From Chloroflexota bacterium (lineage in GTDB: Bacteria > Chloroflexota > Dehalococcoidia > SZUA-161): a stretch of DNA of 33,580 nt. Positions 5,478 through 31,358 of this stretch are shown piece after piece (position 1 is the stretch's first letter; every line of letters begins with the position of its first letter). The notes beneath the pieces were generated by a model that searched no databases, was not told where the DNA came from, and was given only the letters and a program-made list of their open reading frames with translations. Location of the stretch: positions 1-33,580 of the forward strand of contig JAJYLC010000002.1 of the NCBI GenBank assembly GCA_021787935.1, read 5' to 3'. Made by a program: the position numbers and the translations under genes.

Positions 5478-6872
5478 TTAAGTGAATACCCCTGCCTTCT
5501 TAAGCTCGCGGAGCTTCTTCACTATCCCCTGTTCCTCCACAAAGTGCGTGGTGTAATCTCCCTTGCGGAACGACTCGTTGTCCAGGGCCACTATATGGAA
5601 CGGGATATTAGTTTTAACCCCCTCTATCTGATATTCCTTAAGCGCCCTCTTCATGGTCTCAATGGCTTCATTGCGATTTCTGCCCCAGGACAACAGCTTG
5701 GCTATCAGAGGGTCATATTCAAATGGTATAGCGTATCCTGCGTATACGCCACCATCAACTCTGACTCCGAAACCGCCGGGCGGATTGTACGCTATGAGTT
5801 TGGCTGGCGCAGGCATGAAATTCATGAACGGATCCTCGGCATTGATCCTGCACTCTATGCTCCACCCCCGGAGTTTAATATCCTGCTGACTGTAGCCAAG
5901 CTCCTCGCCAGCAGCAACCCTTATCTGCTCCTTGACCAGATTGATACCAGTCAGAAGCTCAGTGATAGGATGCTCTACCTGAAGACGGGTATTCACTTCG
6001 TTGAAGTAGTACTCGTTATTGTCCATCGAATAGATGAACTCGACAGTCAGCGCATTGACATATTTCAATATCCTGGCCACCTTAACGGCATCAGCCCCCA
6101 TCCTCTCGCGCAGATCAGGAGTCATTATCGGAGAAGGGCCCTCCTCGATGAGCTTCTGATACCTTCTCTGAACCGAGCACTCGCGGTCGCTTACATAGAC
6201 GGTGTTGCCTTTTTTGTCAGCCAGAATCTGAAACTCCATATGCTTGGCTCTGGTGATATATTTCTCGATATAGAAAGCCGGCAAACCGAAAGCCTCGCTG
6301 CCCAGCGATTTGGCATAGTCCATGGCTGCCTGCAGCTCCTCCTTGTTCTTGGCTACTTTCATGCCTATTCCGCCGCCAGCGCCGCTTGGCTTCACAATCA
6401 CGGGGTAGCCGATGCCATCCGCAACCTCGAAAGCTTTGACCATGCCGCTGGCATCGTCTATAGCGCCATCAGAGCCGGGCGATACGGGAACGCCGTTTTT
6501 CTTCATAAGGTCACGTGACTTATGCTTGGGCTTAGCCTCGTGCATAGAATAGCTGGGAGGTCCGATGAATACAATACCCCGGGCCTCGCAGGCTTCGACA
6601 AACTTCGGATTTTCAGCCAGAAAACCGTATCCCGGGTAAATAGCTTCAACCTGGGCTTTTTCGGCTATGCCCAGTATTTTCTCAATATTCAGATAGCTGG
6701 AATTGGGTTCCGGGTCACCCAAGGGATAGGACTCATCGGCATTTTTTACGAATAGCGCTGCAGCATCCTTGTCTGAGAAAACAGCCACGGACCGTATGCC
6801 CATCTCCCTGCATTCCCTTATTGCCCGGAGTGCGATTTCCCCACGATTAGCTACCAGGATCTTTTTGAACAT
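5478..6872 (-). CDS. accC: Biotin carboxylase subunit of an acyl-CoA carboxylase
   Basis: ATP-dependent biotin carboxylase of 464 aa that would carboxylate the biotin on the neighbouring carrier protein. Domains in order: biotin carboxylase N-terminal (KKILVANRGEIALRAIR), ATP-grasp (AGGGIGMKV near residue 175; YVSDRECSVQRRYQKLIEEGPSP near 225-245), catalytic EVNTRLQVEHPITE near 290-305, and the C-terminal domain (ECRINAEDP). Two places deviate from the common consensus: HEAKPKHKSRDLM where GDK..AK is usual, and KPSGAGGGIGM where KAS.GGGG.GM is usual. The gene begins 36 bases after the carrier gene, in one operon with it. The acyl-CoA acted on is set by a carboxyltransferase, three of which lie in this window. 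Confidence 0.94.
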   Translation of the reverse strand: MFKKILVANRGEIALRAIRECREMGIRSVAVFSDKDAAALFVKNADESYPLGDPEPNSSYLNIEKILGIAEKAQVEAIYPGYGFLAENPKFVEACEARGIVFIGPPSYSMHEAKPKHKSRDLMKKNGVPVSPGSDGAIDDASGMVKAFEVADGIGYPVIVKPSGAGGGIGMKVAKNKEELQAAMDYAKSLGSEAFGLPAFYIEKYITRAKHMEFQILADKKGNTVYVSDRECSVQRRYQKLIEEGPSPIMTPDLRERMGADAVKVARILKYVNALTVEFIYSMDNNEYYFNEVNTRLQVEHPITELLTGINLVKEQIRVAAGEELGYSQQDIKLRGWSIECRINAEDPFMNFMPAPAKLIAYNPPGGFGVRVDGGVYAGYAIPFEYDPLIAKLLSWGRNRNEAIETMKRALKEYQIEGVKTNIPFHIVALDNESFRKGDYTTHFVEEQGIVKKLRELKKAGVFT

Positions 6873-7495: not shown

Positions 7496-9043
7496 ATGAG
7501 TTCGAAACAATTGAGGCAAAAGCTCCTTGCACTTGACAAGATGGGCCACAGGCTCCGGCAGGGAGGCAGTCTTGCCAGGATAGAGAAACACCGCGCCAGA
7601 GGGAAGCTCACAGCGCGCGAGAGGATAGGTAAGCTTCTCGACCCCGGCACTTTTCAGGAGCTCGACCTCTGGGGCACGCCGATGGCTACAGGGACCCTTA
7701 CCGACTATAAAAAGGGCCCGGCGGACGGCGTTGCTGTGGGGTACGGTGAGGTAAACGGCCGCCCTATCTATGTCTGGTCACAGGATTTTACCGTCTTCGG
7801 GGGCACAGTAGCCACGGTCCATGCCCGTAAGATAACTATGGTGATAGAGAAGGCCATACAGGCCAGAGTTCCCATAGTGGGCATTATTGACTCCGAAGGG
7901 CCTCGAATCGAAGATACTATTCAATACTACCGTTTTTACTCCCCCGAATCTATGGTCTACTTCCAGACCATGGCCTCGGGTGTAATCCCTCAAATCTCTC
8001 TGATTATGGGGCCATGCTTCGGCGAGATGGCTATTTCCGCCTCGCTGGCTGATTTCGTCTTCATGGTAAAAAATACCAGCTACATGCATATAGCACCGCC
8101 TCCTGAGGGCAAGACGGCTGAGAAAGTAGGCGAAGCGCTGGCGCATACACAGGACACAGGCTGCTGCGACGTTCTGGCTGAATACGATGAAGACTGCCTC
8201 CAAATGTGTCGCGAACTGTTGAGCTTCCTCCCATCGAATAATAAAGAGAAGCCGCCGATAGTAGACACCGGAGACAACCCCAATCGCAGGGAGGAGGAGC
8301 TTCTGGAGATAGTGCCCTTCAATATGAAGAAGGCATTCGACATGCGCCGGATAATCTCCCTAGTTGTAGATAATGGTAAGCTCTTCGAGATAAAGCAGCA
8401 GTGGGCAACCAATCTGATAACCGGGTTTGCCCGCCTAGGCGGGCAAACCGCAGGCATTATAGCCAATAACCCGCAGTCCCTGGGCGGCTCCCTGACCCTT
8501 GACGCAGCGGACAAGATGGCGCGCTTCGTCAGGTTCTGCGACGCCTTCAATATACCACTCATCTGGCTGGCGGACACTCCCGCCTTTATGCCAGCAGTTG
8601 AAGAGGAGACCAGGGGACTGATACGGCACGGCTGCAAAGTGGTGTTCTCCAACACTGAGGCTTCGGTGCCTCAGATAACCATTGCCATACGCAAGCTTTA
8701 CGGAGGAGGTGGAGTCGCCATGCCCGGCACAACACTGGGAGGCGATCTCGATATAGCCTGGCCTTCTGTAGAGCGCGGCTTGATGGGTGCAGAAGCAGCG
8801 GCCGCCATAATATACAAGAGAGAGCTGAGAGCCCTTAAAGAAAAAGACGAAGCCGCATTAAAAGCGAGGCACGCCCAGCTTGTCTCCGAGATGCAGCGTA
8901 AACTGAGGGGACTGGAGCGCGAGTGGGGGCAAGAGTTCATCGACCCCCGCGACACCCGTCGCTTCCTCATCGAAGCCCTAAAGGTCTTTGCTGAAAGATT
9001 GGAAAAACGCCCCCGCCGCAAGCACGAGAACATCCGCTTGTAA
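7496..9043 (+). CDS. Acyl-CoA carboxylase carboxyltransferase subunit (PccB/MmdA-like), paralogue 1
   Basis: Carboxyltransferase of 515 aa with two crotonase-like halves, the normal size for propionyl-CoA carboxylase beta or methylmalonyl-CoA decarboxylase alpha. Seen: GKLTARERIGKLLDPGTFQELD at the N-terminus, GPADGVAVGYGEVNGRPIYVWSQDFTVFGG, and the C-terminal GREWGQEFIDPRDTR-type ending. Key motifs deviate from consensus: IIDSEGPRIED replaces DSGGARIQE, and MGPCFGEMAISAS (residues 171-182) replaces GPCAGGAVYSPA, so the first oxyanion hole lacks the usual Gly-Gly. It is strongly similar along its whole length to the 21270-22814 product, including the same KHENIRL terminus. It diverges from the biotin carrier and biotin carboxylase genes, its likely partners. 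The substrate is unknown. Confidence 0.92.
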   Translation: MSSKQLRQKLLALDKMGHRLRQGGSLARIEKHRARGKLTARERIGKLLDPGTFQELDLWGTPMATGTLTDYKKGPADGVAVGYGEVNGRPIYVWSQDFTVFGGTVATVHARKITMVIEKAIQARVPIVGIIDSEGPRIEDTIQYYRFYSPESMVYFQTMASGVIPQISLIMGPCFGEMAISASLADFVFMVKNTSYMHIAPPPEGKTAEKVGEALAHTQDTGCCDVLAEYDEDCLQMCRELLSFLPSNNKEKPPIVDTGDNPNRREEELLEIVPFNMKKAFDMRRIISLVVDNGKLFEIKQQWATNLITGFARLGGQTAGIIANNPQSLGGSLTLDAADKMARFVRFCDAFNIPLIWLADTPAFMPAVEEETRGLIRHGCKVVFSNTEASVPQITIAIRKLYGGGGVAMPGTTLGGDLDIAWPSVERGLMGAEAAAAIIYKRELRALKEKDEAALKARHAQLVSEMQRKLRGLEREWGQEFIDPRDTRRFLIEALKVFAERLEKRPRRKHENIRL

Positions 9044-9391: not shown

Positions 9392-9429
9392 ATGACTTTT
9401 GGAGGCAAAATAAAAGGAGGATTTTGGCA

Positions 9430-9897
9430 ATGAAGATAGAACATCAAGAAATACTCTCAGCCTTTCAACAATTCAAAGAAGTGCGCGAAGTATTCGCAAA
9501 GTATGAAGGCAAGTGGTTCAGTGGTAATGACAATCATATAGGCGACATCGGAGAGTATTGGGCAATGCGCTACTTTGAAGATAGAAATCCCAAGATAGCG
9601 CCTAGCCGAACTTCTAACTACGATATTGAATTGGGTGATGGGACTCGACTATCAGTAAAAACAATGTCGGAATGGAATAAGAGGGGACAAGGAGGCCCAG
9701 TAAAAGGCATAGATAGCGCGTTTTGGAATTACTTGGTTGCAGTCAAACTTGATAATGACCTTAACGTTGAAAAATTTTGTATTGTACCCCATGAGCAAGT
9801 AAAGAAGAGGGGGATTAAGGAAAGGAAACCTTTCAGATGGTGGTCTTGGTTAGATGAATTTTCAAAGCCGTTTAGTATCGCACAAGGTGATGCTTAA
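9430..9897 (+). CDS. Hypothetical protein with a PD-(D/E)XK nuclease-like pattern
   Basis: A 155-aa soluble protein. I see an arrangement like the restriction-endonuclease fold: a helix with GDIGEYWAMRYF, then NYDIEL (candidate Asp), then RLSVKTM (candidate xxK), spaced as in PD-(D/E)XK enzymes. The C-terminus is basic and tryptophan-rich (KERKPFRWWSWLDEF). The track starts at a TTG (9424), but AGGAGG at 9415-9420 fits the ATG at 9430 better, at nine bases' spacing. A 13-codon ORF just upstream ends in an ATGA overlap with this ATG, hinting at coupled translation. Base composition is more AT-rich than neighbours, suggesting transfer. A defence or DNA-repair role is possible but not shown. Confidence 0.7.
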   Translation: MKIEHQEILSAFQQFKEVREVFAKYEGKWFSGNDNHIGDIGEYWAMRYFEDRNPKIAPSRTSNYDIELGDGTRLSVKTMSEWNKRGQGGPVKGIDSAFWNYLVAVKLDNDLNVEKFCIVPHEQVKKRGIKERKPFRWWSWLDEFSKPFSIAQGDA

Positions 9898-9944
9898 TGA
9901 CTTTTGGAGCAGAAAGGCCAGTTGTTCATTAAAGGAGGGGGGCA

Positions 9945-10220
9945 ATGGCAGGGACAAGGATAAGGAAAGTAGGCACACAGAAAGAATTTGATAGTGTGGT
10001 TGATGATTACATTACTCAGGGATATCATATTATGAGCCAAGGAGAGAAAACTACTATGCTTCGGAAGAATTCATGGGGTAGTGGTGCGGGTCACTTATTC
10101 ACAGCACTGCTTACCATTTGGTGGACTCTCGGCATAGGTAATGCAATCTATGCAATCGCCAGCCATTTTATGGCGGAAAAGGTGCTAGTGAGAATAAGCA
10201 CTGAGGCAGAGGCAAAATAG
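9945..10220 (+). CDS. Small hypothetical membrane protein
   Basis: A 91-aa protein not recognised as a named family. The first ~50 residues are soluble and basic (TRIRKVGTQKEFDSVVDDYITQGYHI). One long hydrophobic stretch follows, HLFTALLTIWWTLGIGNAIYAIASHFMA, enough for one long or two short membrane passes. The tail is charged. GGAGGGGGGC precedes the ATG. It follows the nuclease-like gene by 47 bases, and both share the upstream leader motif AATGACTTTTGGAG, so they probably form one unit. Function unknown. Confidence 0.65.
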   Translation: MAGTRIRKVGTQKEFDSVVDDYITQGYHIMSQGEKTTMLRKNSWGSGAGHLFTALLTIWWTLGIGNAIYAIASHFMAEKVLVRISTEAEAK

Positions 10221-10295: not shown

Positions 10296-11102
10296 TTAGC
10301 GCCCCCGAGGTAAAACACTCCAGTTCCTTCTGGACTCATCCGCCGCCAGAACAGCCGCTCCCACAGCCCCAATAACATCGGGTTCTACGGGAAACTTTAC
10401 GAATTCTGTCTCTAGTTCCCTTTCGAGATATTTGAACACACCTTCGTTCTTCGCCATCCCGCCCGTCATGGCGATATCATTCCTGGGCCCCAATCCCCGT
10501 ACCAATTGAAGGATATAGCGCGCCGCGCTTTCATTTATTCCGGCGGCGATGTCAGCCCGGTTTCTTCCCTCCAGGACCAGGCGCTTGATATCGATTTGAG
10601 TCAGGATGCAGCAGAGCTTGTTCAAGACAATAGGGTCCCGTGCCTCTTGAGATAGCGGTCCCAGCCGGGAAACATCGACACCCAGGCTCTCCGCCATCAT
10701 CTCGAGTGCCCTGCCTGTGCCGGCGGCGCACTTCACGTTCATACGGAAGTCAACCAACGTTCCGTGCTTATCAACGCGCAGCGCTTTGCAGTCCTGACCA
10801 CCGCCATCGATGATTGTCCGGACGCTAGGTACCAGCCAGTTCGCGCCTCGCCCGTGGCACGATATCTCGCTCATATTGCTGTGGGCAAACGGTATCAGGC
10901 TGCGCCCGTAACCGGTGCTCACGCAAAAGTCGATTTGCTCATAGGAAAGGCCAAGCCTAGCCAGCAGCCTGTCCATAACATCGAAGGCGGACTGAACAGC
11001 CTTTGCCCTCGACCGTACCACCGCGGTTCCGAGGAGGACATCATCCTTTATGACTGCGGCTTTTGTGGTCAGAGCTCCCACATCGCATCCGGCGGTGAGC
11101 AT
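10296..11102 (-). CDS. BadF/BadG/HgdC-family ATPase (2-hydroxyacyl-CoA dehydratase or benzoyl-CoA reductase activator), subunit with canonical motifs
   Basis: ASKHA-fold iron-sulfur ATPase of 268 aa, close to HgdC length. It carries the N-terminal phosphate loop GCDVGALTTKAAV, the STGYGR segment, the second phosphate loop IIDGGGQDCKAL (~97-107), and the cluster-binding cysteine in VKCAAGTGR (C125), with a second at NKLCCIL (C164/C165). In the family, a [4Fe-4S] cluster is held at the dimer interface and ATP hydrolysis drives an electron into the dehydratase or reductase. Its ATG lies one base after the stop codon of the 11104-11943 gene, so the two are translationally linked. The dehydratase at 25-27 kb is a plausible partner, but this is inference. 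Confidence 0.92.
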   Translation of the reverse strand: MLTAGCDVGALTTKAAVIKDDVLLGTAVVRSRAKAVQSAFDVMDRLLARLGLSYEQIDFCVSTGYGRSLIPFAHSNMSEISCHGRGANWLVPSVRTIIDGGGQDCKALRVDKHGTLVDFRMNVKCAAGTGRALEMMAESLGVDVSRLGPLSQEARDPIVLNKLCCILTQIDIKRLVLEGRNRADIAAGINESAARYILQLVRGLGPRNDIAMTGGMAKNEGVFKYLERELETEFVKFPVEPDVIGAVGAAVLAADESRRNWSVLPRGR

Positions 11103-11103
11103 A

Positions 11104-11943
11104 TTATTGGCCCCTCCGTCCGTAGAAGCGCTCGGCTAAAATCATACTGATTGTCTCTATACTAAGGTCGCGGCTCTCCCTGGCGACAAGCGCAGCCCCA
11201 TAAGCCTCGAGGAGCTGGGGGTCAAAGCCGTTAAGGCTGGCCAGCCTCAACCCGAGCTTTTCCTCGAGGTCCCCCACCACGATGCTGTTCTTGGCGACTC
11301 CACCCACCAGGGCCACCTCCTCAATAACATCTATCCTTCTGACAAGTCCGACTATCCTGTCAGCGACAGCGGAAGCAACCCCAGCAAAGATGTCGAATTT
11401 ATCACAGCCTTCGTTTATCAGGGAGATTACCTCGCTCTCGGCAAACACGACACACTGACTGGCTATGGGAAGAGGGTTCTTTGAGCTGAGCGAAGCCTGA
11501 ATCAGCTTATCGAGCGGCATCTCCAGAGCATTGGCTATTACTTCGATAAACATCCCCAGCCCGGCAACGCATATATCGGTAACGGCAGCCTCTCCTACTA
11601 CCCCCTGCGTGTCAATACTAAAAGCCTCGGTGCACTGGCCGCCGATGTCGATTATGGTTCGTACCCGGGGATTGAACTGCCTCACAGCCCGGCTCAGACA
11701 TACTGTCTCAGGTACGACCCCTTCCGAATAAGGTACAGCCTTACCTCCGATTCCGGTAGACAGGCAGCGGTCTATCTTTTTGCCCGAGAGCCCTGCCTTA
11801 GCCAGGGCATTTGCCATAGCGTCAACTGCTGCCTGAGGGGTGGGGCTTTTGTAGGGTATTATGTCGAAGGCGAGGCTGCCATTGTCAGTGACAATGGCAG
11901 CCTTCGCCGCAGAAACCCCTAAATCACACCCGGCGTATATCAA
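11104..11943 (-). CDS. BadF/BadG/HgdC-family ATPase, divergent partner subunit
   Basis: A 279-aa paralogue of the adjacent activator. It keeps the fold and both candidate cluster cysteines at the same positions (C125 in TDICVAGLG, C164 in SQCVVFAES) and the N-terminal loop GCDLGVSAAKAAIV. It has lost consensus residues in the nucleotide loops: GGQCTEAFS in place of GGQDxKA, and AGLGMF in place of AGTGRF. The pair may therefore be an unequal heterodimer, as with BcrA/BcrD of benzoyl-CoA reductase, with this subunit a weaker or inactive ATPase. It is fourth in the five-gene minus-strand operon, 37 bases after the lipocalin-like gene. Confidence 0.88.
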   Translation of the reverse strand: MIYAGCDLGVSAAKAAIVTDNGSLAFDIIPYKSPTPQAAVDAMANALAKAGLSGKKIDRCLSTGIGGKAVPYSEGVVPETVCLSRAVRQFNPRVRTIIDIGGQCTEAFSIDTQGVVGEAAVTDICVAGLGMFIEVIANALEMPLDKLIQASLSSKNPLPIASQCVVFAESEVISLINEGCDKFDIFAGVASAVADRIVGLVRRIDVIEEVALVGGVAKNSIVVGDLEEKLGLRLASLNGFDPQLLEAYGAALVARESRDLSIETISMILAERFYGRRGQ

Positions 11944-11980
11944 ATCTACTACCTTTATCCATGCCTTTCCAGTGTATTAG

Positions 11981-13435
11981 CTAAATACGGCTGATAAAGT
12001 CGCGGCACAAATCGGACAGGCTCGCCGCAGGCGCTCCGGTCATTTCCACCTTGATGTTCTGTGAAATAAACGCTAAATCGGCGTTTAACAGTTCTTTCGC
12101 CCTTGATTTGTCCCCTACCTGGACAGCGGTAAGGATTTCTTCCAGGTCGTTGTTCAGCTTTCGCTGAATAGCAGCACGGTTTCCGATAAAGGCTTGATCG
12201 GGGAGATTCTTGAAAGTATTGCGCATCATCTCTATGAATTCGTGCTCCTGGTGATACAGCTTGGTGCCCTCCAGAAAGCCGGTACCGTAGACCTCTTTGC
12301 CGCGCGCCTTTCCGGTTATCTCTACCGGGCCGAAGAAATATTCCACAAAAACAGCCTGCGTGTTGTCCTCCAGGACCGGCGTTATGACAAGATCAGCGTC
12401 CCACTCGGGAACAGTTAGCCTGACCGCATGAGGAATATAGCTGTTTTTGGGAGCCGTGCGGAATATAGGCCCCGCTTCCTTGGGCCACACTCGATTCTGA
12501 TAATAGCTTATGGGCTCGAAGGTGTAGCTGTTTGTCGTTGCCATAGTATTATCTTCGAAGAGAGCGAAGATGCCGGAGAAAGGCAGGAGGCGGTTATACC
12601 TCAGCGTATCATACTGCCTCCAGAGGCCGAAATCCCAACCGTTGCTGAGGTTCCCTCCCAGATACTGATGTTTGATTCTTCTTATCGGCTTGTTCCGGCT
12701 GCCAAACTGTTTGGGCGCCCACTGCAACCCCACCTTGCCCACGCCTTCGATGTGCTCCGTCTTGCCCGCTATCTCAAGAGTGCCTTGCACCTTGACCCTG
12801 GGGCTCAGGCAGAAAGCAAAAGTATATGGCTGGCCAAACATGGTGAGCATGCCGCCGTAATCCATGCCTCCATCCAATAGAGGCGGCTTTAAAGCCTCCA
12901 GATCGACAGAAAGCTTCGTCTGCACTGCCGATTTTGGATTGCTCGAAGCTTCCAGGTGATACTCGAAAGGAACTAGATTGCCGCTGGAGTCCTTCTTCGG
13001 ATACCACTTGTCTACGCTGCCGCCCCGCGGGTGATACGTGATATCGAGATTCCCCTCTTTTACTTCAAAAGGAGGTTTATAGACAATGGGGAATGGCCTG
13101 AAATGGTATCTTCTATCAACATAGCGCTTTTTCTCCGAGATATCAGCCACATTAAGCATCCGGCAGTTGAAGCCGAAAAGCTTGCCCATGGCGTTGTAGC
13201 TGTATATGTGGACGAAGGTGTATATCTTCCCTGTTTCCTTTGACTTGACATACGCTTCGATATCCCAGGACTGAGATTCGTACCCCGGATGCCACCCTAT
13301 AGCTGAAGGTAACGTAAAATTTTTCTCAGCGCCTTTGTAGGCGAAGGGGTAGTGTTTCCACGATTTGTCCTTCCAGAAAGGTAAGGATTGCATATCTCCT
13401 GTCTGCAAGATAAGGGCATCGCTTTCAGGCTTCAT
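11981..13435 (-). CDS. Lipocalin-like protein of the CrtC/AttH (hydroxyneurosporene synthase) type
   Basis: A 484-aa beta-rich soluble protein without signal peptide. It resembles the two-barrel CrtC/AttH family: an N-terminal AIGWHPGYESQSWDIEAYVKSKETGKIYTFVHIY region, a central VGLQWAPKQFG...NGWDFGLWRQYD block, and a second barrel ending in VYGTGFLEGTKLYHQ. The last ~85 residues form a separate helical tail (KLNNDLEEILTAVQVGDKSRAKELLNADL) that is not part of the barrels. AGGAGG lies five bases before the ATG. CrtC proteins hydrate carotenoids and AttH is of unknown role. Its location between a DUF6125 gene and two BadF ATPases is unusual. Assignment rests on recognised motifs only. Confidence 0.7.
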   Translation of the reverse strand: MKPESDALILQTGDMQSLPFWKDKSWKHYPFAYKGAEKNFTLPSAIGWHPGYESQSWDIEAYVKSKETGKIYTFVHIYSYNAMGKLFGFNCRMLNVADISEKKRYVDRRYHFRPFPIVYKPPFEVKEGNLDITYHPRGGSVDKWYPKKDSSGNLVPFEYHLEASSNPKSAVQTKLSVDLEALKPPLLDGGMDYGGMLTMFGQPYTFAFCLSPRVKVQGTLEIAGKTEHIEGVGKVGLQWAPKQFGSRNKPIRRIKHQYLGGNLSNGWDFGLWRQYDTLRYNRLLPFSGIFALFEDNTMATTNSYTFEPISYYQNRVWPKEAGPIFRTAPKNSYIPHAVRLTVPEWDADLVITPVLEDNTQAVFVEYFFGPVEITGKARGKEVYGTGFLEGTKLYHQEHEFIEMMRNTFKNLPDQAFIGNRAAIQRKLNNDLEEILTAVQVGDKSRAKELLNADLAFISQNIKVEMTGAPAASLSDLCRDFISRI

Positions 13436-13490
13436 AGTACCCTCCTTTCGAACTCAGCAGGCGTTAATCAGAATGTACCTTTTTTGTCCC

Positions 13491-14057
13491 TCACTCCTCT
13501 ATCTTGAGTTCCCACCGGCAAAAAGGCTCATTGGGGTTTTTCCGCGGGGGTCTCTCCAGCGGCGTCACTTTTATCTTCGGGTTGTGCAAAAACTTCTCCA
13601 TCACGGGTTGCTCCATCTTGTAACAAAGCTGCTGTATCTTTTCGGGGGCGAACGCTTCCAGGAACTCACACGTGATGCATTTGGTGGTAGTGGAGATAAC
13701 GTGATTGGGGCTCTTGATATCGACTTCGCCGCCGAAAAGCTCCGACTCCGTATGACCGTCTGGAGCCAGTTGAATCACCTTCAGGGAATCGAGGACAGTA
13801 TTCAGCTTGATGTTACCCAGCTCGACCCAAACGGGGATCATCCTGTCGGCCTGAATAAGCAGTGCTTGCAGAGCGCAGTCGTCAGCAGCATCGGAGCCGA
13901 ATTTCTCCGAGACTACTTGAACCCAGGCCCCCTGAATGCCCAGATAGGCACCCTGCCATGATTTTATCAGCTTGACCAGAAACTCCTTGGAAAAATCCTC
14001 CCATTTCAGGTGATGGTTGTACGGACCGCTGTAGTCTTTTAGCTCCTTTTTCGCCAT
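13491..14057 (-). CDS. DUF6125-like protein
   Basis: A 188-aa soluble protein that I recognise as resembling the DUF6125 family (opening ELKDYSGPYNHHLKWEDFSKEFLVKLIKSW). A cysteine set in the second half, KCITCEF, LCYKME and PFCRWEL (CxxC...C...C), looks like a metal or cofactor site. The family is common in anaerobes and has no established function; some relatives are annotated as L-2-amino-thiazoline-4-carboxylate hydrolase-like. AAGGAGATAC before the ATG is a good ribosome site. It lies 19 bases after the phosphorylase and 55 before the lipocalin-like gene, inside one operon. Confidence 0.7.
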   Translation of the reverse strand: MAKKELKDYSGPYNHHLKWEDFSKEFLVKLIKSWQGAYLGIQGAWVQVVSEKFGSDAADDCALQALLIQADRMIPVWVELGNIKLNTVLDSLKVIQLAPDGHTESELFGGEVDIKSPNHVISTTTKCITCEFLEAFAPEKIQQLCYKMEQPVMEKFLHNPKIKVTPLERPPRKNPNEPFCRWELKIEE

Positions 14058-14076
14058 GTATCTCCTTTCTGTGCCT

Positions 14077-14808
14077 TCAAATTTTAGTTACCAGGTCACT
14101 CACGAAAGCGGCCAGGTTTCTCTTCGCCAGCCGCGTGTTTCTGTACAGGGTAAACACGTTGAGTAAATACCAGGGATGTAGCAGGAAACAAAGCGCTGCT
14201 TCCTTCCAGAGCAATTCACCATCAGTGTTGAGAATCCGGTCGAAAGGCTGCACGCTGCTCTGTATGTTGTCCGAAACGGAGCGAACAGTTATGAAGGGAA
14301 TCCCCCGCGCTGAGGCTATTCTGGCGATCCAGTAGCTTTCCATGTCTACAATATCGGCATGGAAAGTCTCCCTCAACACATGCATCTTCTGAGCACTGGA
14401 ATTCAGTTGCAGTACCGAGACATCGCTGCCCAGTCTCCCACCGGGTCCCTGCGATGCCAGAGAAAACAGATGCTCATCTGGGGCTAAGGGTTCTAGCTCT
14501 TCCTGCTCCGACCCAGGCTGGCCATACAGCGTTGAGCAGACCACAACAGCGCCAATCTCGATCTCCGGATTCAGTGCCCCGGCAAAGCCAAGAGAGATTA
14601 TTGCTGTAACAGGATAGCGCTCCAGAGCGAACCGGGTTGCGTTCTCAGCCCTCTGCTTGCCCATCCCGGTTTGTACCAGCAGGGTGTCCTTGTTTTTGAG
14701 CTTGCCGCGGTACAGTCTGAAACCCCGTCCGGCGACCGTCTCCTCGATGACCATCTGTCTGCGCAGGTCTATTATCTCCTGCCCGAATGCACCCATGACA
14801 GCCAGCAC
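14077..14808 (-). CDS. Nucleoside phosphorylase / MTA-SAH nucleosidase-like protein
   Basis: PNP/UDP phosphorylase superfamily protein of 243 aa. Seen: N-terminal VLAVMGAFGQEI, the phosphate/ribose region TGMGKQRAENATRF and SLGFAGALNPEIEIG, and the purine-binding VDMESYWIARIASARGIPFITVRSVSD with the Met-Glu and Asp expected for nucleoside binding. It would cleave or phosphorolyse an N-glycosidic bond of a nucleoside such as methylthioadenosine. The hopanoid-associated phosphorylase HpnG is an alternative relative. The track starts at GTG 14814, but GGAGG abuts that codon, so GTG 14808, five bases further on, is the better start. It opens the five-gene operon down to 10296. Confidence 0.82.
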   Translation of the reverse strand: MLAVMGAFGQEIIDLRRQMVIEETVAGRGFRLYRGKLKNKDTLLVQTGMGKQRAENATRFALERYPVTAIISLGFAGALNPEIEIGAVVVCSTLYGQPGSEQEELEPLAPDEHLFSLASQGPGGRLGSDVSVLQLNSSAQKMHVLRETFHADIVDMESYWIARIASARGIPFITVRSVSDNIQSSVQPFDRILNTDGELLWKEAALCFLLHPWYLLNVFTLYRNTRLAKRNLAAFVSDLVTKI

Positions 14809-19395: not shown

Positions 19396-21015
19396 TTAAA
19401 GCGGTATCAGGGAGTGCTTCCGCCACGGCCTCGTCGGCCCGGGGCCCAGCTTTTCCCAGTGTTCCATCTTCTGGGACAGCCTCTCCAGCGTGTTCACCAG
19501 TATAGGCCGCGTCCTTCGGGGGTCGATGATGTCATCAGCGCCCTGGATGCCTGCCAGGTGATACGCCGAGGCGTACTTCTCGTGTACCTGCTCCATGAAC
19601 TGACGGCGCAGCTCCTCGGGATGCTCGGCAACCGCCAGCTCGCCCCGGTAAAGCGCGTCTGCTGCTCTATCGTAGCCCTCCACCCTGATGTCGGCAGTGG
19701 GCCAGGTGTACACAGCGTCAACGCCCATGCGCTCGGTGCCCATGACCAGCCGCGCTGCGCCCCAGCATCTTCTTATGTAAACTGTTATCCTGGGCGTGGT
19801 GGCCTCGCAGATGGCGAACACCGGCTTGGCAGCATTCCTCTCCAGTCCGTCCCTGTGCTGCTCCTGCTCCAGGCTGGGCAGGAACCCCGGGCTGTCTACC
19901 AGCGTGATTATCGGTATGTTGAAGCAGTCGCAGAACCTGATGAACCGCGCCTGCTTGTCTCCGGTATAAACATCGAGGCAGCCATCCCCGGCAGCCGGGT
20001 TATTAGCTACAATGCCCACCGTCTTTCCAGCCAGCCGTCCGAAGCCGATTATCATGCTGGGCGCATATAGTGCCTGCAGTTCGAAGAAGTCTCCCTTGTC
20101 CACAATAGATGCGATGACCTTGTGCATGTCATAGGGCTGGCTTATATCGGCGGGCACCATGTTTAGAAGATGCTCATCGGTTCGATTGGGGTCATCGCCC
20201 GTGTTGACTACGGGGGACTTGTCCCGCCAGTTGGAGGGCAGGAAGCTGAGCAGCTTTTTGCTGGCGTCTATAGCCTCCTCATCGCTGTCGACCAGCAGGT
20301 CGTTAGAACCGGTAACCGTGGAGTGCAGCAGCGCGCCTCCGATCTCCTCTTCGGTGACATCTCTGAACGTTACCGCCTTCAAAATAGGCGGCGAGGCTAC
20401 TGACATGAAGGCTATATTCCTGCGCATGATGACGAAGTCAGCCATTATGGGAGAGTAGGCCGAGCCTGCATAGCAGGGACCCAGCATCAGGCTGATGTGA
20501 GGCACCACACCCGACATGAGCGGAGGATAATACATGAACCCCCCGCCGCCGCCCACCGGGCTGCCCCTTACGGGGACCTTGAACCCGTTCCTGCCGAACA
20601 GGTCATGGATTCTGATAGCGCCCGAATCGATCATCCCCACCAGGGGAATGCCCTCCTCCATAGCCTGCTCCATGGCACGGGCTACCTTGCTGTTCTGGAT
20701 CATGGACTGCGTGCCTGCCAGCACGGTGAAGTCGTGGGCATAGGAGTAAACGGTGCGCCCGTTGACCTTTCCATATCCCACAATCACGGAATCGCGCGGC
20801 AGCTCTCTATCGTCGATATCGAAGCCTGTCTTCATAGGCTGTGTCCACAAGCCTATCTCGTGGAATGTGCCTGGATCGAAAAGCCTCTGTATCCTTTCCC
20901 AGGCTGTCAGCTTGCCCTTGCCATGCTGTTTGTCTATCGCAGTCTTATCTCCGCCGGGCAGCCATCTTTTCCTGTGCTCTTCAACTTTTTCCAGCTTTAC
21001 CTTCGCGTCTGCCAT
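19396..21015 (-). CDS. Acyl-CoA carboxylase carboxyltransferase subunit, divergent paralogue 3
   Basis: A 539-aa carboxyltransferase of the PccB/MmdA group. It has the N-terminal GKLTAWERIQRLFDPGTFHEIGLW, the first-half YAHDFTVLAGTQ and GMIDSGAIRIHD, and the C-terminal TWPTADIRVEGYDRAADALYRGEL followed by IIDPRRTRPIL. Consensus residues are changed at the acyl sites: GPCYAGSAYSPIMADF for GPCAGGAVYSPALTDF, and RRCWGAARLVMG for RKAYGGAY.VM. It is clearly more distant from the other two carboxyltransferases here than they are from each other. GGAGGGATCAG gives a good ribosome site. It is 254 bases downstream of the 21270 gene on the same strand. Substrate unknown. Confidence 0.9.
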   Translation of the reverse strand: MADAKVKLEKVEEHRKRWLPGGDKTAIDKQHGKGKLTAWERIQRLFDPGTFHEIGLWTQPMKTGFDIDDRELPRDSVIVGYGKVNGRTVYSYAHDFTVLAGTQSMIQNSKVARAMEQAMEEGIPLVGMIDSGAIRIHDLFGRNGFKVPVRGSPVGGGGGFMYYPPLMSGVVPHISLMLGPCYAGSAYSPIMADFVIMRRNIAFMSVASPPILKAVTFRDVTEEEIGGALLHSTVTGSNDLLVDSDEEAIDASKKLLSFLPSNWRDKSPVVNTGDDPNRTDEHLLNMVPADISQPYDMHKVIASIVDKGDFFELQALYAPSMIIGFGRLAGKTVGIVANNPAAGDGCLDVYTGDKQARFIRFCDCFNIPIITLVDSPGFLPSLEQEQHRDGLERNAAKPVFAICEATTPRITVYIRRCWGAARLVMGTERMGVDAVYTWPTADIRVEGYDRAADALYRGELAVAEHPEELRRQFMEQVHEKYASAYHLAGIQGADDIIDPRRTRPILVNTLERLSQKMEHWEKLGPGPTRPWRKHSLIPL

Positions 21016-21269: not shown

Positions 21270-22814
21270 TTATAACCTGATGTTTTCGTGCTTTCTGGGC
21301 GGCCTTCCTTCGTCCCTGCTGGCAAATGTCTTGAGCGCCTGTATCAGGAACGGCCTGGTATCCCTGGGGTCGATGAAGCCCTGTCCCCATTCACGCTCCA
21401 GGGCACGCAACTTGTGCCTCATCTCTACAGTGCGCTGCTCCAGTTTCTGCGTCCTCGCACTCTCGTCCTCAATGGACTGCAACTCCCTCTTGTAGATGAT
21501 AGATACCGCCCCCTCCGCTCCCATCAACCCACGCTCCACAGAAGGCCAGGCCACGTCGAGGTCGCCTCCCAGCGTTGTGCCCGGCATGGCCAACTGCCCG
21601 CCTCCGAAAAGCTTCCGAATGGCGATGGTAATCTGAGGCACGGTGCATTCAACGTTCGAGAATACCAGCTTGCAGCCGTGCCGTATCAGTCCCCTGGTCT
21701 CCTCATCGATAGCCGGCAAGAAGGCCGGGGTATCCGCCAGCCAGACCACTGGTATATTGAAGGCATCGCAGAACCTGACAAAACGCGCCATCTTGTCCGC
21801 TGCGTCAAGCGTTAGCGCGCCGCCCATAGACTGGGGATTATTAGCTACAAAACCCACCGTCTGCCCGGCCATCCTGCCGAAGCCGGTTATCAGATTGTTC
21901 GCCCACTGTCGTTTAAGCTCCAAGAACTCGCCCTTATCTACTACCAGAGAGATAAGCTTGGTCATACTATAGGGCTTGTTGGTATCGAGGGGAGCGACAG
22001 CCAGAAGCTCCTCTTCCCTGCGATTGGGTGGATCGCCAGTGTCCACTATCGGCGGTTTCTCCTTATTGTTCGAGGGCAGGTAACTCAGCAGCTTGCGGCA
22101 ACTCTCTATACATTCATTGTCGTCTTTAGCTAAGAAATCGCAGCAGCCCGTTTTGCGGAAGTGCCCCGACGGGTCGCCCACTTCCTCGGAGGTCTTACCC
22201 TGGGGCGGCGATGCTACGTGCATATAGCTGGTCTTCCTGACCATGAAAACGAAATCCGCCATCGAGGCGGAGATTGCCATTTCCCCGATACATGGCCCCA
22301 TTATCAGAGAGATTTGGGGGATCACGCCTGAGGCCATGGTCTGGAAATAGACCATAGATTCCGGAGAGTAAAAGCGATAATACTGGATGGCGTCTTCGAT
22401 TCTGGCACCCTCTGAATCTATAATAGCGACAATAGGTATGCGGGCATGAATGGCCTTCTCCATAGCTCCTGATATCTTGCGAATATGAATGTTGGCCCAT
22501 GTTCCGCCGAAAACAGTGGCGTCCTGCGACCAGACGTAGATTGGGCGGCCGTTTACCTGACCGTATCCCACAGCAACGCCGTCCGCAGGGCCTTCTGTTT
22601 TATCGATGTCGAACCCTGTAGCCATCGGCGTGCCGAACAGGTCAAGCTCCTGAAAAGTGCCGGGATCCAGAAGCTTCTCTATCCTCTCGCGAGCTGTGAG
22701 TTTACCTTTCTTATGCTGCTTCTCAACCTCAGCGGTGCCGCCACCCTGTTTCAGCCTGCCCCTCAACCCATCAAGCTCAGAAAGCTTCTGATTCATCATA
22801 TCCAAATCGCTCAT
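21270..22814 (-). CDS. Acyl-CoA carboxylase carboxyltransferase subunit, paralogue 2
   Basis: A 514-aa carboxyltransferase very like the 7496 product in every block: GKLTARERIEKLLDPGTFQELDLFG, GPADGVAVGYGQVNGRPIYVWSQDATVFGG, DSEGARIEDAIQYYRFYSPESM, MGPCIGEMAISASMADFVFM, TLDAADKMARFVRFCDAFNIP, MPGTTLGGDLDVAWPSVERGLMGAE and a final KHENIRL. It shares the same non-consensus first oxyanion-hole sequence (CIGEMAIS). GGGAGGACTT precedes the ATG. It diverges from the CoA-transferase at 23213, which suggests that its acyl-CoA substrate may be made by that enzyme. No biotin carboxylase is beside it, so it may share the one at 5478-7130. Confidence 0.92.
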   Translation of the reverse strand: MSDLDMMNQKLSELDGLRGRLKQGGGTAEVEKQHKKGKLTARERIEKLLDPGTFQELDLFGTPMATGFDIDKTEGPADGVAVGYGQVNGRPIYVWSQDATVFGGTWANIHIRKISGAMEKAIHARIPIVAIIDSEGARIEDAIQYYRFYSPESMVYFQTMASGVIPQISLIMGPCIGEMAISASMADFVFMVRKTSYMHVASPPQGKTSEEVGDPSGHFRKTGCCDFLAKDDNECIESCRKLLSYLPSNNKEKPPIVDTGDPPNRREEELLAVAPLDTNKPYSMTKLISLVVDKGEFLELKRQWANNLITGFGRMAGQTVGFVANNPQSMGGALTLDAADKMARFVRFCDAFNIPVVWLADTPAFLPAIDEETRGLIRHGCKLVFSNVECTVPQITIAIRKLFGGGQLAMPGTTLGGDLDVAWPSVERGLMGAEGAVSIIYKRELQSIEDESARTQKLEQRTVEMRHKLRALEREWGQGFIDPRDTRPFLIQALKTFASRDEGRPPRKHENIRL

Positions 22815-25003: not shown

Positions 25004-26149
25004 GTGGCCAAAGTAGCTCAGCGAGGGCTGATTAAAGCCCAGGAGCTATATGAGCATCGGCAGACGAGAGCAAAAGAGCTGGCAAAAAAGGGCAAAAAGG
25101 TAATAGGGTATTTCTGTTCCTACACACCGGTAGAAATATTTACCGCACTTGATCTGGTGCCTTTCCGCATCCAGGGTAAGGTGGGCAAGCCCGTCGAGCA
25201 GGCTGGACAATACCTCGAAAGCATAGTCTGCCCCTATGTACGCAGTTGCTTTGATATCGCATTGGGCGGTGAATTAGACTTCCTCTCCGGCGTCGTTATC
25301 CCCCACACCTGTGATGCTATGCACCGTCTCTATGATATCTGGAAGTACCATCTCAAGCCGCCCTACAGCTATTCGCTGTACGTCCCGCATATGACTCACC
25401 AGGCTTCCTTCGACTTTTTCCAGAAGGAAATAGAAAATCTCAAGACAGGCCTAGAGCAATTCGTGGGGCGTTCTGCATCCGAGCAAGACTTAATCAAAGC
25501 TATCGGCCTCCATAATCGCAGCCGTGCTCTTCTCAAAGAGCTTTACGAACTGAGGAAGCCAGAGCCGCCGCTCATCTCCGGCTCTGAGATTATCCAGGTG
25601 CTGGTGGCAGGGATGACCATTCCTATTGAGGAATTCAACGAACTCCTCGAGGATATCCTGGTGGAGGTGCACAGCCGGAACCCCAGCGCTGAAAATAAGC
25701 CCCGGCTACTGATTTCGGGCAGCGAGGTTGACGATGACTCATTGATACGGCTGGTTGAGGAGTGCGGAGCCGATGTGGTGATGGATGACCTGTGCACTGG
25801 CAGCCGCTTCTTCTGGCACGATGTTGACCCGTCTAAAGAGGCGATAGCCGGCCTCGCCGAACGCTACCTGAAAATCACATGCCCGCGTACTTACAGACCG
25901 GGCAAGGCTGCCCAGCGCTTCAACTATTTAGGCGACTTTATCCGCGAGTGGAAAGCGCAGGGGGTTATTCTGTATACAATCAGATTCTGCGACACATATC
26001 AGTTGGATGCCCCTGAGATGATGGACTATATACAGAGCCTGGGCCTGCCCGTACTCTTCCTTGAGGATACCTATATCACATCTCCTCTAGGGCAGTGGAA
26101 GACCAGGGTCGAAGCCTTTCTGGAAACGATTGAGGCACGGAGGGAATAA
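25004..26149 (+). CDS. 2-hydroxyacyl-CoA dehydratase subunit (HgdB/FldC/BcrC-like)
   Basis: A 381-aa subunit of the radical iron-sulfur 2-hydroxyacyl-CoA dehydratase/benzoyl-CoA reductase family. Conserved cysteines are in the expected places: GYFCSYTPVEIF (C38), IVCPYVRSCFD (C76, C82), HTCDAMHRLYDIW (C103), and a late IRFCDTYQLDAP. The region GTRPLLISGSEVDD-like (PRLLISGSEVDDDSLIRLVEECGADVV) is also typical. These subunits hold a [4Fe-4S] cluster that passes an ATP-energised electron to the acyl-CoA. It starts at GTG 25004 and leads the operon. Four bases separate it from the partner subunit. Size and motifs resemble phenyllactyl-CoA dehydratase subunits, but the substrate is unproven. Confidence 0.93.
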   Translation: MAKVAQRGLIKAQELYEHRQTRAKELAKKGKKVIGYFCSYTPVEIFTALDLVPFRIQGKVGKPVEQAGQYLESIVCPYVRSCFDIALGGELDFLSGVVIPHTCDAMHRLYDIWKYHLKPPYSYSLYVPHMTHQASFDFFQKEIENLKTGLEQFVGRSASEQDLIKAIGLHNRSRALLKELYELRKPEPPLISGSEIIQVLVAGMTIPIEEFNELLEDILVEVHSRNPSAENKPRLLISGSEVDDDSLIRLVEECGADVVMDDLCTGSRFFWHDVDPSKEAIAGLAERYLKITCPRTYRPGKAAQRFNYLGDFIREWKAQGVILYTIRFCDTYQLDAPEMMDYIQSLGLPVLFLEDTYITSPLGQWKTRVEAFLETIEARRE

Positions 26150-26152
26150 AGC

Positions 26153-27484
26153 ATGGCAGAAGAGACTAAAACAGAGCCAAAGCAGAAAACGAGTTCTGCC
26201 AAATCCACAGAGTCAGCAGGCAAAATACGCCAAATAGTTAAACGCATGTATAAAAAAGCACAACAGGCCAAGGAAGAGAACCGCAAAATAGCCTACTGCA
26301 TGGTCATGTGCAACTACGAGGAAATCCTGGAGGCTATGGACGTGGTGCAGGTCTACACCGAGAACTACGCCGGACTCTGCGCCGTCAAAAGAGAAGCCGA
26401 GCAGTATATGAAGAAGGCGCAGGCTGTGGGGTATTCCGATGTTCTCTGCGGCTACGCTCAGGTGGGTATAGGATTCGATGCCTGGAGGCACGAACTGGGA
26501 GCCATGCCGCCCGATGCCCCCGACGGCGGTATGCCGGAACCGGATATGCTCCTCGGGTGCAGTATGGGCTGCGACCCCCGCTGGAAATGGTATCAGGCAC
26601 TGGGACGCTATAAGGACACTCCAATCTATAACATGGAAGTCCTCATGCCTCCTAGCGATGCCGATTTCGATGCTATCAGGGCTTACTATGTTCGCTACAT
26701 GGCTGAGGAGCTCAGAGGTTTAATAGCATTCCTGGAAAAACAGACTGGCAAGAAGATGGACTATGACCGATTGACGTCGATTGTTAAACAGGTAGAGGAA
26801 ACACGACAGTGGTGGCGCAAAGCGTACGAACTGAGAAAAGCCATCCCTTGCCCGATGTCGACACAGGACCATTTTGTGATATTCGTGCCTCACCATATGC
26901 TGCTCACCGACCCCATGACCCTGGACTTTTACAAAGGCCTGTACCAGGAACTGAAGGAGAGGGTAGATAATGAAATAGGTGTTATCGATGATGAGAAGTA
27001 CCGCCTGCTCTGGGGAGTAGGGATACCTCCCTGGCACAGCATGTACATACTCGATTATTTCCAGAGCTTCGGCGCAGTCTTCGCCGCCGAGACAGCCTAC
27101 ATGATACCGGAGCCTTTCGAGATGCCATACGACATTACCGACCCCGTGGAGCTAATCGCACTGCGCGCCTTTGAACGAAATAGTGCGATACAGCGGCGCG
27201 GCAAGGAAGCAGGCGGCGTCCCGCCCCTGGCCCAGGCGCACCTGGAACGGATAAAGGATTTCACCATCGACGGTGTAGTTATGCATATCACACGCTCCTG
27301 CAGAGCGGCTACCATGGGCCAGATTCTGGTCAGGAATGTGATACGTGATTATTACCCTCGATTGCCTGTGATGTTCATGGAAAGCGACATCGTTGACGTC
27401 GAAACCTATTCGGAAGCCGAGACCAAGAACCAGATAGATACTTTCATGGAAATGGTGGACGTATACAGAAAATCGCATAGATAG
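26153..27484 (+). CDS. 2-hydroxyacyl-CoA dehydratase subunit (HgdA/FldB-like), second subunit
   Basis: A 443-aa partner of the preceding subunit. The N-terminal 45 residues are a hydrophilic Lys/Glu-rich extension. The family part follows, with IAYCMVMCNYEEILEAMDVV (C49, C53), YAGLCAVKREAEQYM (C76), VLCGYAQVGIGFDAW (C99), LLGCSMGCDPRWKWYQ (C136, C140), and the late MHITRSCRAATMGQI. The number and spacing of cysteines depart from the simple three-ligand pattern of HgdA/FldB, and LCGYAQVGIG resembles the LCSYVR..G site. GGAGGGAATAAAGC precedes the ATG. It would form the heterodimeric dehydratase core with the 25004 product; the activator is probably one of the 10-12 kb ATPases. Confidence 0.9.
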   Translation: MAEETKTEPKQKTSSAKSTESAGKIRQIVKRMYKKAQQAKEENRKIAYCMVMCNYEEILEAMDVVQVYTENYAGLCAVKREAEQYMKKAQAVGYSDVLCGYAQVGIGFDAWRHELGAMPPDAPDGGMPEPDMLLGCSMGCDPRWKWYQALGRYKDTPIYNMEVLMPPSDADFDAIRAYYVRYMAEELRGLIAFLEKQTGKKMDYDRLTSIVKQVEETRQWWRKAYELRKAIPCPMSTQDHFVIFVPHHMLLTDPMTLDFYKGLYQELKERVDNEIGVIDDEKYRLLWGVGIPPWHSMYILDYFQSFGAVFAAETAYMIPEPFEMPYDITDPVELIALRAFERNSAIQRRGKEAGGVPPLAQAHLERIKDFTIDGVVMHITRSCRAATMGQILVRNVIRDYYPRLPVMFMESDIVDVETYSEAETKNQIDTFMEMVDVYRKSHR

Positions 27485-27498
27485 CAGAGGAGGCGCCA

Positions 27499-28701
27499 AT
27501 GCCGAAGAAGCCGCTGCAAGGTATCAGAGTGCTGGACTGGACAGCCTGGCAGGCAGGGCCCGTCGCCACCGCTCTGTTGGCAGACATGGGCGCTGAGGTA
27601 ATCAAGATAGAGCCGCCAGAGGGCGAGCCCGGACGCGGCATGCTGAAGATGTACGGGGCTGAGTTGCCACTGAATTTCTATTACCAGAACCAGAATCGGG
27701 GCAAGAAAGGCATCGTGCTGAACCTGGCGACGAAGAAAGGCAAAGAGGTCCTCTATGATCTGGTAAAGAAGTCCGACGTCTTCGTAACCAACTTCCGCGA
27801 AAGCGTGACCAACAGGCTGAAGGTTGACTACAACACCTTAAAGAAATATAACCCCAAACTCATCTACTGCTTAAGCTCAGGCCTCGGACCTAAGGGACCT
27901 GAAACCGATAGAATGTTTGCCGATTTCGCCGGTCAGGCGAGAGGCGGCTTACTTAGCATCACTCAATCTGAAGATGATGTGCCGACATTTATTGGAGCTG
28001 GTTTCGCCGACGAGGTCGGCGGATTATTAGCAGCCTATGGAGTGATACTAGCGCTCTTTGCCCGAGAACGATATGGGATTGGGCAAAGGGTGGATGCCTC
28101 GCTGCTGGGCGGGCAGATCGAGATTGGACGTCTCCAGTTGCAGATGTACTTTATGATGGGCATGCTACCTCCGACTTCAGTAATGAAAGCTATCAGAAAC
28201 CCGCTTTATTATGTCTACCAGGACTGCGATGGTAAATGGTTCGTTCTAGCAGCATTACAGGCAGACAGGTTCTGGTCTGATTTCTGCAAGGTATTCTGCA
28301 TTGAAGAGCTGGAGAATGACCCCAAGTATTGCAACCAGGTGTGCAGAGGCCAGAACTTTGATGAGCTTAAGCCCAGACTGTTCGAGATAACGCGCAGCAA
28401 GCCGAGGAGCTACTGGCTGGAGAGGCTCGACAAGGCCGGAATACCCTGTGCGCCTGTTAACGATTACTCCGATGTGGAGAATGACCCCCAGGTGATAGCT
28501 AATGAATATGTCGTGGAAATAGACGACGCTATCCATGGAAAGGTCAAGGTGCCGGGCATCCCTGTGAAATTGAGTAAGACGCCGGGCAAGGTAGAGAAAC
28601 TTGCCCCGGAGCTTGGCCAGCATACGGAAGAGGTATTAATGGAAATACTGGGCTATACCTGGGACGACCTGGCGAAATTGAGAGAAGCAGGAGTTTACTG
28701 A
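27499..28701 (+). CDS. Class III CoA-transferase (CaiB/BaiF/Frc family)
   Basis: A 400-aa class III CoA-transferase. Seen: LQGIRVLDWTAWQAGPVATALLADMGAEVIKIEPPEGEPGR at the N-terminus, NRGKKGIVLNLATKKGKEVLYDLVKKSDVFVTNFRESV, and the active-site region FADFAGQARGGLL whose Asp corresponds to the catalytic aspartate of formyl-CoA transferase. The family forms an aspartyl-CoA anhydride and swaps CoA between acids. In phenyllactate fermentation the equivalent (FldA) activates the 2-hydroxyacid for the dehydratase. Position directly after the two dehydratase subunits supports that role here. Its stop codon overlaps the next ATG (TGATG), so it is tightly coupled to the oxidoreductase genes. Confidence 0.93.
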   Translation: MPKKPLQGIRVLDWTAWQAGPVATALLADMGAEVIKIEPPEGEPGRGMLKMYGAELPLNFYYQNQNRGKKGIVLNLATKKGKEVLYDLVKKSDVFVTNFRESVTNRLKVDYNTLKKYNPKLIYCLSSGLGPKGPETDRMFADFAGQARGGLLSITQSEDDVPTFIGAGFADEVGGLLAAYGVILALFARERYGIGQRVDASLLGGQIEIGRLQLQMYFMMGMLPPTSVMKAIRNPLYYVYQDCDGKWFVLAALQADRFWSDFCKVFCIEELENDPKYCNQVCRGQNFDELKPRLFEITRSKPRSYWLERLDKAGIPCAPVNDYSDVENDPQVIANEYVVEIDDAIHGKVKVPGIPVKLSKTPGKVEKLAPELGQHTEEVLMEILGYTWDDLAKLREAGVY

Positions 28702-30565: not shown

Positions 30566-30761
30566 TAAGGGAAGTAAGAAGTTCTCCCTCCCCTTGAGGG
30601 AGGGAGTCAGAGGGAGGGGGAAGGGTTTTCACCCTCATCCTTCGACAAGCTCAGGACAGGCTCTGACCACTCCGTTCGGCTGAGCTCACGGCGAAGCCCG
30701 TCAAGGGAGAGGAATCTTTAAGGGCAAAAGTATTTCAAGAATCGAACTTGAGGTAAATATT
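30566..30761. repeat. Repeat-rich insertion between oxidoreductase subunit genes
   Basis: A 196-base non-coding stretch: CTCCCTCCCCTTGAGGGAGGGAG near-palindrome, then a CTTCGACAAGCTCAGGACAGGCTC segment, TTCGGCTGAGCTCACGGCGAAGCC, and CAAGGGAGAGGAAT (30702-30715), which is shared with 21131-21144. It separates the beta and gamma subunit genes, which are normally adjacent. It looks like a composite palindromic element inserted in the operon. Confidence 0.7.
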
Positions 30762-31343: not shown

Positions 31344-31358
31344 GATTAAGAGGATGAA

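Follow-up and report, generated by a model that had tools for sequence, protein, structure and literature searches.

The stretch analysed here (the window) comprises 33,580 nucleotides of contig JAJYLC010000002.1 from a Chloroflexota bacterium of the class Dehalococcoidia (assembly GCA_021787935.1). It contains five closely spaced genes, previously described as a single operon, that encode a phosphorylase-superfamily protein (PNP), a DUF6125-like protein, a lipocalin-like protein (LIPO) and two BadF-type ATPases (ACT2 and ACT1):

14814-14077, minus strand: PNP; GTG start, match to PF01048 with E=4e-30
14057-13491, minus strand: DUF6125-like protein; fold predicted to resemble V4R/H-NOX, three cysteines (127, 145, 180) invariant in the family
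13435-11981, minus strand: LIPO; AttH/CrtC-like, two lipocalin domains and a helical extension at the C-terminus
11943-11104, minus strand: ACT2; TTG start, degenerate activase subunit, TIGR00241 159 bits
11102-10296, minus strand: ACT1; canonical activase subunit, TIGR00241 206 bits, PF01869 E=9.4e-52

The gaps are, in this order, 19, 55, 37 and 1 bases, and the gene calls agree with the preliminary description of five same-strand genes separated by 1-55 bases. Purifying selection is evident for all compared genes (pN/pS 0.14-0.36). Judged from sequence comparison, the orphan activase is real, and the redox function envisaged for the operon as a whole is not supported.

The ACT2-ACT1 activase pair

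The electrons that BadF-type activases produce with the help of ATP are among those of lowest potential in biology. Both window proteins exceed the NCBIfam cut-off for TIGR00241 (acyl-CoA dehydratase activase, 125.4) and the cut-off of PF01869 (176.6 for ACT1 and 123.9 for ACT2 vs 31.5), consistent with their earlier identification as BadF-type ATPases. ACT1 falls below the equivalog cut-offs of BzdQ (175.8 vs 380.2), BcrA (135.7 vs 578) and BcrD (124.1 vs 312.85); its best match in the PDB is 4eht (E=4.9e-56). The phosphate-2 motif is intact in ACT1 (DGGGQD) and lost in ACT2 (DIGGQC), and alignment columns show that the bridging-cluster cysteines Cys125 and Cys164 are kept in ACT1, ACT2 and their orthologues.

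This asymmetry recurs in the tandem activase pairs that could be read. GGQD is present in one subunit and not in the other in all 29 readable pairs (loci L034, L035, L053, L055, L058, L061, L062, L065-L067, L069-L071, L075, L076, L205, L221-L230, L237 and L245), and MbdQ/MbdP of the solved 3-methylbenzoyl-CoA reductase carry GGQD and GGQT, respectively. The degenerate subunits sit at several separate tree positions, so the asymmetry apparently has more than one origin. It fits an ACT1-ACT2 heterodimer with one putatively active ATPase site, and the rule of one intact and one degenerate subunit bears on the ATP cost per electron.

The ACT2-ACT1 tandem unit was found at 13 loci in 12 genomes belonging to three families of Dehalococcoidia (the window, G001, G008, G068 twice, G127, G137, G158, G159, G179, G198, G208 and G217); in families f46 and f22, the class-wide search revealed ACT2 orthologues that are 47-61% identical. 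No HGD-D gene was detected in the fetched flanks of these 13 loci, some of which lie on short contigs (3.2 kb in G179, 4.2 kb in G208), and the neighbours are common to congeners only, except for a loosely related molybdenum oxidoreductase in two genera. On this comparison, the lack of a linked dehydratase is conserved along with the pair and is not a quirk of one contig. The statement that the activators have no dehydratase beside them thus holds for adjacency and recurs at the 13 loci, although it overlooked the two HGD-D genes that the window contains at a distance of 13 kb. Retention of the pair across three families, yet apart from its enzyme, implies that it either acts in trans or serves an unknown target. 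No earlier description of an orphan activase pair was found in the limited literature searched.

The orphan ACT1 proteins (11 sequences) and the orphan ACT2 proteins (12 sequences) each form a clade with support 100/100, and the two trees match up in several places. Members of the ACT1 clade carry DGGGQD and mostly CC at the site where other activases have a single cysteine before FAES, and those of the ACT2 clade mostly have GGHS or GGHT in place of GGQD. The nearest non-orphan pair, G006:C61, is located directly behind HGDa-HGDb genes and is sister to both clades (support 99/95 and 97/96). The ancestor was therefore probably a four-gene operon of the benzoyl-CoA reductase (BCR)/2-hydroxyacyl-CoA dehydratase (HAD) type, whose activase half became independent. 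The HGDab proteins of G006:C61 were considered as the lost partner and rejected, the genome of the window having no close orthologue (best 32%). Because the window pair is closer to those of G068 and G217, which belong to another family, than to that of G008 from the same family, transfer or differential loss of the pair is likely from the trees.

Gene order in related genomes

The comparison does not support the five genes as one functional operon. Based on the gene orders in G001 and G008, the occurrence of PNP orthologues only in G003 and G004 and the rarity of LIPO, the set is divided at the sequence level into three modules: ACT2-ACT1 (11943-10296), DUF6125-LIPO (14057-11981) and PNP. In the congeneric genome G001, LIPO, ACT2 and ACT1 stand in the same order and adjoin the same carboxyltransferase gene, with the contig starting inside LIPO. 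This is the longest common stretch, and it occurs in that single genome, so that the expected conservation of the cluster beyond near-identical genomes was not observed.

The sequence of G008 (CP070819) consists of contigs chained via 100-N gaps, and only its gap-free stretches were used. There the DUF6125-like and LIPO genes are adjacent (77 and 70% identity to the window), with unrelated flanking genes and no activases; elsewhere, ACT2 is preceded by hydrogenase genes and ACT1 is cut by an N gap. The DUF6125-LIPO pair is thereby common to the window and one other genus, in which it is unlinked to activases. Orthologues of PNP were found in G003 and G004 alone among the 11 genomes searched, and both lack LIPO and this activase pair. 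The class search covered 393 genomes and detected LIPO (E<=1e-15) in 3 of them, and a contig scan with narrow LIPO patterns gave CP070819 as the sole match.

Comparison of G001, G008, G003 and G004, together with the class search, rules out the five-gene operon as a conserved unit. Taken jointly with the function proposed below for the activases, a chance assembly of three modules with different histories is, in our judgement, somewhat the more probable origin of the neighbourhood. The 'one good promoter' previously assigned to the operon is weak: the promoter-like sequence at 14895-14867 matches 9/12 consensus positions, and 10 matches of such a score occur in 6.6 kb, compared with 5.9 +/- 2.1 in shuffled sequences.

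Candidate partner and target of the activases

A pair of HGD-D genes, HGDa and HGDb (HGDab), is encoded 13 kb from the activase genes, on the opposite strand:

25004-26149, plus strand: HGDa; BzdN-like, PF06050 E=1.4e-94, BzdN 8s02_B E=3e-57
26153-27484, plus strand: HGDb; BzdO-like catalytic subunit, PF06050 E=1.3e-55, BzdO 8s02_A E=7.6e-31
27499-31343, plus strand: CaiB-type CoA-transferase and three-subunit 2-oxoacid:ferredoxin oxidoreductase, in line with HGDab

The ligand cysteines of the [8Fe-9S] double-cubane cluster have been listed for BzdN (PMC11971306), and in the alignment HGDa has cysteine at all six positions (BzdN 36, 73, 100, 263, 293 and 327); in the HAD subunit from that output, at least the Cys263 position is missing. 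HGDb keeps the BzdO positions Cys95, Cys128, Cys380, Glu65 and Tyr97 and has arginine at the position of the catalytic His131 of BzdO, where the local alignment is ambiguous. The window is thus predicted to encode a BCR-like radical enzyme acting on a CoA ester. Class I BCR genes (bzdNOPQ) have already been reported in deep-sea Chloroflexi (PMC5736913). The oxidoreductase genes behind HGDab may provide reduced ferredoxin. The stretch 25004-33041 as a whole combines HGDa-HGDb with CaiB, POR and thiamine pyrophosphate-dependent enzyme genes.

HGDb orthologues with 79-95% identity are present in all eight other genomes of the family, most of which also have the first part of the set, with CoA-transferase, HGDa and HGDb. 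No activase was seen beside the HGDab operon in the family stretches read, some of which end within the operon; activation in trans must therefore occur there. On balance, we favour the view that ACT2-ACT1 is a conserved orphan heterodimeric activase serving a BCR/HAD-family radical enzyme in trans, the other three genes being unrelated to it. This proposal builds on the orphan status, the conservation of the pair, the motif asymmetry, the cluster cysteines and the cluster ligands of the partner, as read from the sequences; heterodimer formation, catalysis, the identity of the partner and the functional unrelatedness of the other three genes are what we infer.

In the proposed mechanism, ACT1 and ACT2 would form an asymmetric dimer with a single bridging [4Fe-4S] cluster held by two cysteines from each subunit. 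ATP would be bound and hydrolysed by ACT1, while ACT2, with its damaged phosphate-2 loop, would act as a structural, electron-carrying partner. The bridging cluster, reduced by ferredoxin, would have its potential lowered by ATP hydrolysis and could then pass an electron to a BCR/HAD-family radical enzyme encoded elsewhere in the genome. The most economical target in this organism would be the BzdNO-like HGDa-HGDb, where the electron would travel through the [8Fe-9S] cluster of HGDa and the [4Fe-4S] cluster of HGDb to an acyl-CoA that is reduced or dehydrated. For BZD-type enzymes, association of the activase with the catalytic module is regarded as no more than transient (PMC11971306).

The closest known parallels are MbdQ/MbdP and BzdQ/BzdP of class I BCRs, which likewise comprise two different BadF-type subunits with cluster cysteines in both and perform the ATP-dependent electron injection predicted for ACT1/ACT2; MbdQ/MbdP also share the combination of one GGQD and one degenerate subunit. 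In contrast to these systems, ACT2-ACT1 is encoded apart from catalytic subunits at its 13 loci, the window pair groups in the tree with activases other than those of the BzdNO-like C102 set, and ACT1 scores below the class I equivalog cut-offs. The activators of 2-hydroxyacyl-CoA dehydratases, HgdC and HadI, belong to the same fold family as ACT1 (4eht), but they are single-gene homodimers with an intact motif, unlike the two diverged genes, one of them degenerate, that lie here without an adjacent dehydratase. In the double-cubane cluster protein (DCCP) system, a BadF-type activase likewise feeds an HGD-D-family protein, and HGDa has the double-cubane ligand set in common with BzdN; the DCCP activase is, however, a single gene and a weaker sequence match (7yyl).

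Several observations weigh against HGDab, or against an HGD-D enzyme in general, as the target. Orthologues of HGDab (79-95%) are kept in G002-G007, all of which are without ACT1/ACT2 orthologues; HGDab therefore does not need ACT2-ACT1. G068 (95% complete) combines two orphan pairs with a lone HGD-D pair, behind which lies a single activase of its own, a combination that makes the question of the target testable. ACT1/2, LIPO and, where visible, the DUF6125-like gene are present in the same 3 of 9 family genomes, though unlinked in G008, and the common pattern of ACT1/2 and LIPO could be a weak hint of a functional link. The compared genomes are, moreover, fragmented metagenome-assembled genomes, whose completeness limits claims of absence.

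The presence of HGDab in genomes with other activase sets, in which it evidently works, also suits the idea that the orphan pairs are redundant spare activases, promiscuous across several HGD-D enzymes of the cell. Most genomes contain many HGD-D genes, some without a local activase. The lasting clade-specific motifs (DGGGQD with CC in ACT1, GGHS/GGHT in ACT2) suggest a specialised role instead, and we consider redundancy rather improbable. A target outside the HGD-D family, such as an oxidoreductase with molybdenum or tungsten or a different metalloenzyme of low potential, is unlikely but would account for G068, whose only HGD-D pair is already self-supplied. In both G137 and G068, genes for a DMSO (dimethyl sulfoxide)-reductase-family enzyme and an FeS subunit adjoin an orphan pair; those of G137 (L230:11303-13323) are 49 and 46% identical to L110:2721-5513, the molybdenum enzyme and FeS subunit genes that adjoin the closest DUF6125 paralogue in the genome of the window. 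The molybdenum enzymes of G137 and G068 are, however, distant from each other (about 26% identity), and most orphan loci are without one; the absences on which the idea draws are subject to the genome completeness noted above. To our knowledge, BadF-type activases of known function serve HGD-D-family enzymes, their established targets, and are usually encoded beside them. That ACT2-ACT1 is a dedicated ATP-driven donor for a non-HGD-D class, possibly a DMSO-reductase-family or DUF6125-associated enzyme, would widen the target range of BadF-type activation but seems distinctly unlikely.

The earlier proposal of low-potential chemistry on a hydrophobic ligand, with the activases serving LIPO and/or the DUF6125-like protein in a true, recently assembled operon, draws on adjacency on one strand in the window, continued as LIPO-ACT2-ACT1 in G001, and on the matching presence in 3 of 9 family genomes despite the separation in G008. 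A second locus of the same genome (C157), where an AttH-like protein is encoded close to a DUF6125 paralogue, also speaks for it. Against it, two other families contain the activase pair in 9 genomes with no LIPO seen beside it, LIPO itself was found in only 3 of the 393 genomes searched, and in G008 the DUF6125-LIPO genes and the activases lie apart within gap-free stretches. Moreover, no BadF gene is listed within three genes on either side of other DUF6125 genes, contrary to the suggested co-occurrence with BadF pairs, and neither LIPO nor the DUF6125-like protein contains a recognised redox cofactor motif. There is accordingly little chance that this proposal is correct, and activation of a BCR/HAD-family enzyme in trans is retained as the preferred interpretation.

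The LIPO, DUF6125-like and PNP proteins

The lipocalin label of LIPO is below threshold for the window protein itself (Lipocalin_9 (CrtC/AttH) 23.6 bits, Pfam gathering score 26.2) but is supported by its relatives, all 9 aligned members of which match Lipocalin_9 and 8 CrtC. A Foldseek search with the structural model, which is of low confidence (pLDDT 57), retrieved AttH (2ich, E=5e-15), suggesting membership of LIPO in the AttH/CrtC fold group, to which kievitone hydratase, lipocalin-like Diels-Alderases and 25-phosphosteroid lyase also belong. His239 and Trp241 are essential in CrtC (PMC4717167). At the HxW position of this catalytic histidine, relatives have DHQW and LIPO has GLQW, i.e., leucine; LIPO also differs from the fold group in its extra helical C-terminus. 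Loss of the catalytic histidine weakens the case for LIPO as a working CrtC-type hydratase.

The DUF6125 label likewise fails for the window protein alone (PF19620, 16.6 bits vs a Pfam gathering score of 27) and gains support from its relatives: in an alignment of 38 members, DUF6125 is matched at E<=1 by 36 and ATC_hydrolase (PF14196), weakly, by 12. The three cysteines listed above are invariant over the 38 sequences. The predicted model (pLDDT 94) is similar to V4R/H-NOX-like domains, with TRAPPC3, the phenol-sensor domain of MopR/PoxR and H-NOX as the nearest solved folds; E-values were 0.01-0.1, none below 0.001, and TM-scores reached about 0.5. The protein may have a ligand- and metal-binding role. 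No mention of DUF6125 was found in the literature searched.

The family is expanded in related genomes, with 23 matches in G011, some of them partial, and 14 in G012, and its genes lie near those of CoA-ester catabolism, as judged by eye from gene starts. Their neighbours (L114, L162-L165, L170, L175 and others) include genes of glycyl-radical-enzyme-like and aldehyde-ferredoxin-oxidoreductase-like proteins, of CaiB and of acyl-CoA dehydrogenase, several of them assigned by eye from sequence starts, and one DUF6125 gene in G008 adjoins an HGD-D fragment (L113). In the genome of the window, L111:4522-13248 contains a DUF6125 paralogue, two CrtI-like flavoproteins and an AttH-like lipocalin, as well as thiolase-, MaoC- and acyl-CoA-dehydrogenase-like genes recognised by eye. 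This cluster is a second DUF6125-lipocalin neighbourhood, perhaps engaged in lipid or terpenoid catabolism.

The assignment of the first gene as a phosphorylase agrees with its PF01048 match. The nearest models of PNP are HpnG (90.5 vs 187.1) and MTA/SAH nucleosidase NF004079 (87.2 vs 169), and the protein is below all equivalog cut-offs; it is probably a phosphorylase-superfamily nucleosidase of sporadic distribution. In G004, a distant DUF6125 gene is arranged tail to tail with PNP.

Two small open reading frames at 9424-10220, between ACT1 and the carboxyltransferase gene, are absent from the same place in the congeneric G001 (L032); one of them is DUF6998-like, below the cut-off. The window encodes three biotin-dependent carboxyltransferases (7496-9043, 19396-21015 and 21270-22814) and a biotin carboxylase (5478-6872).

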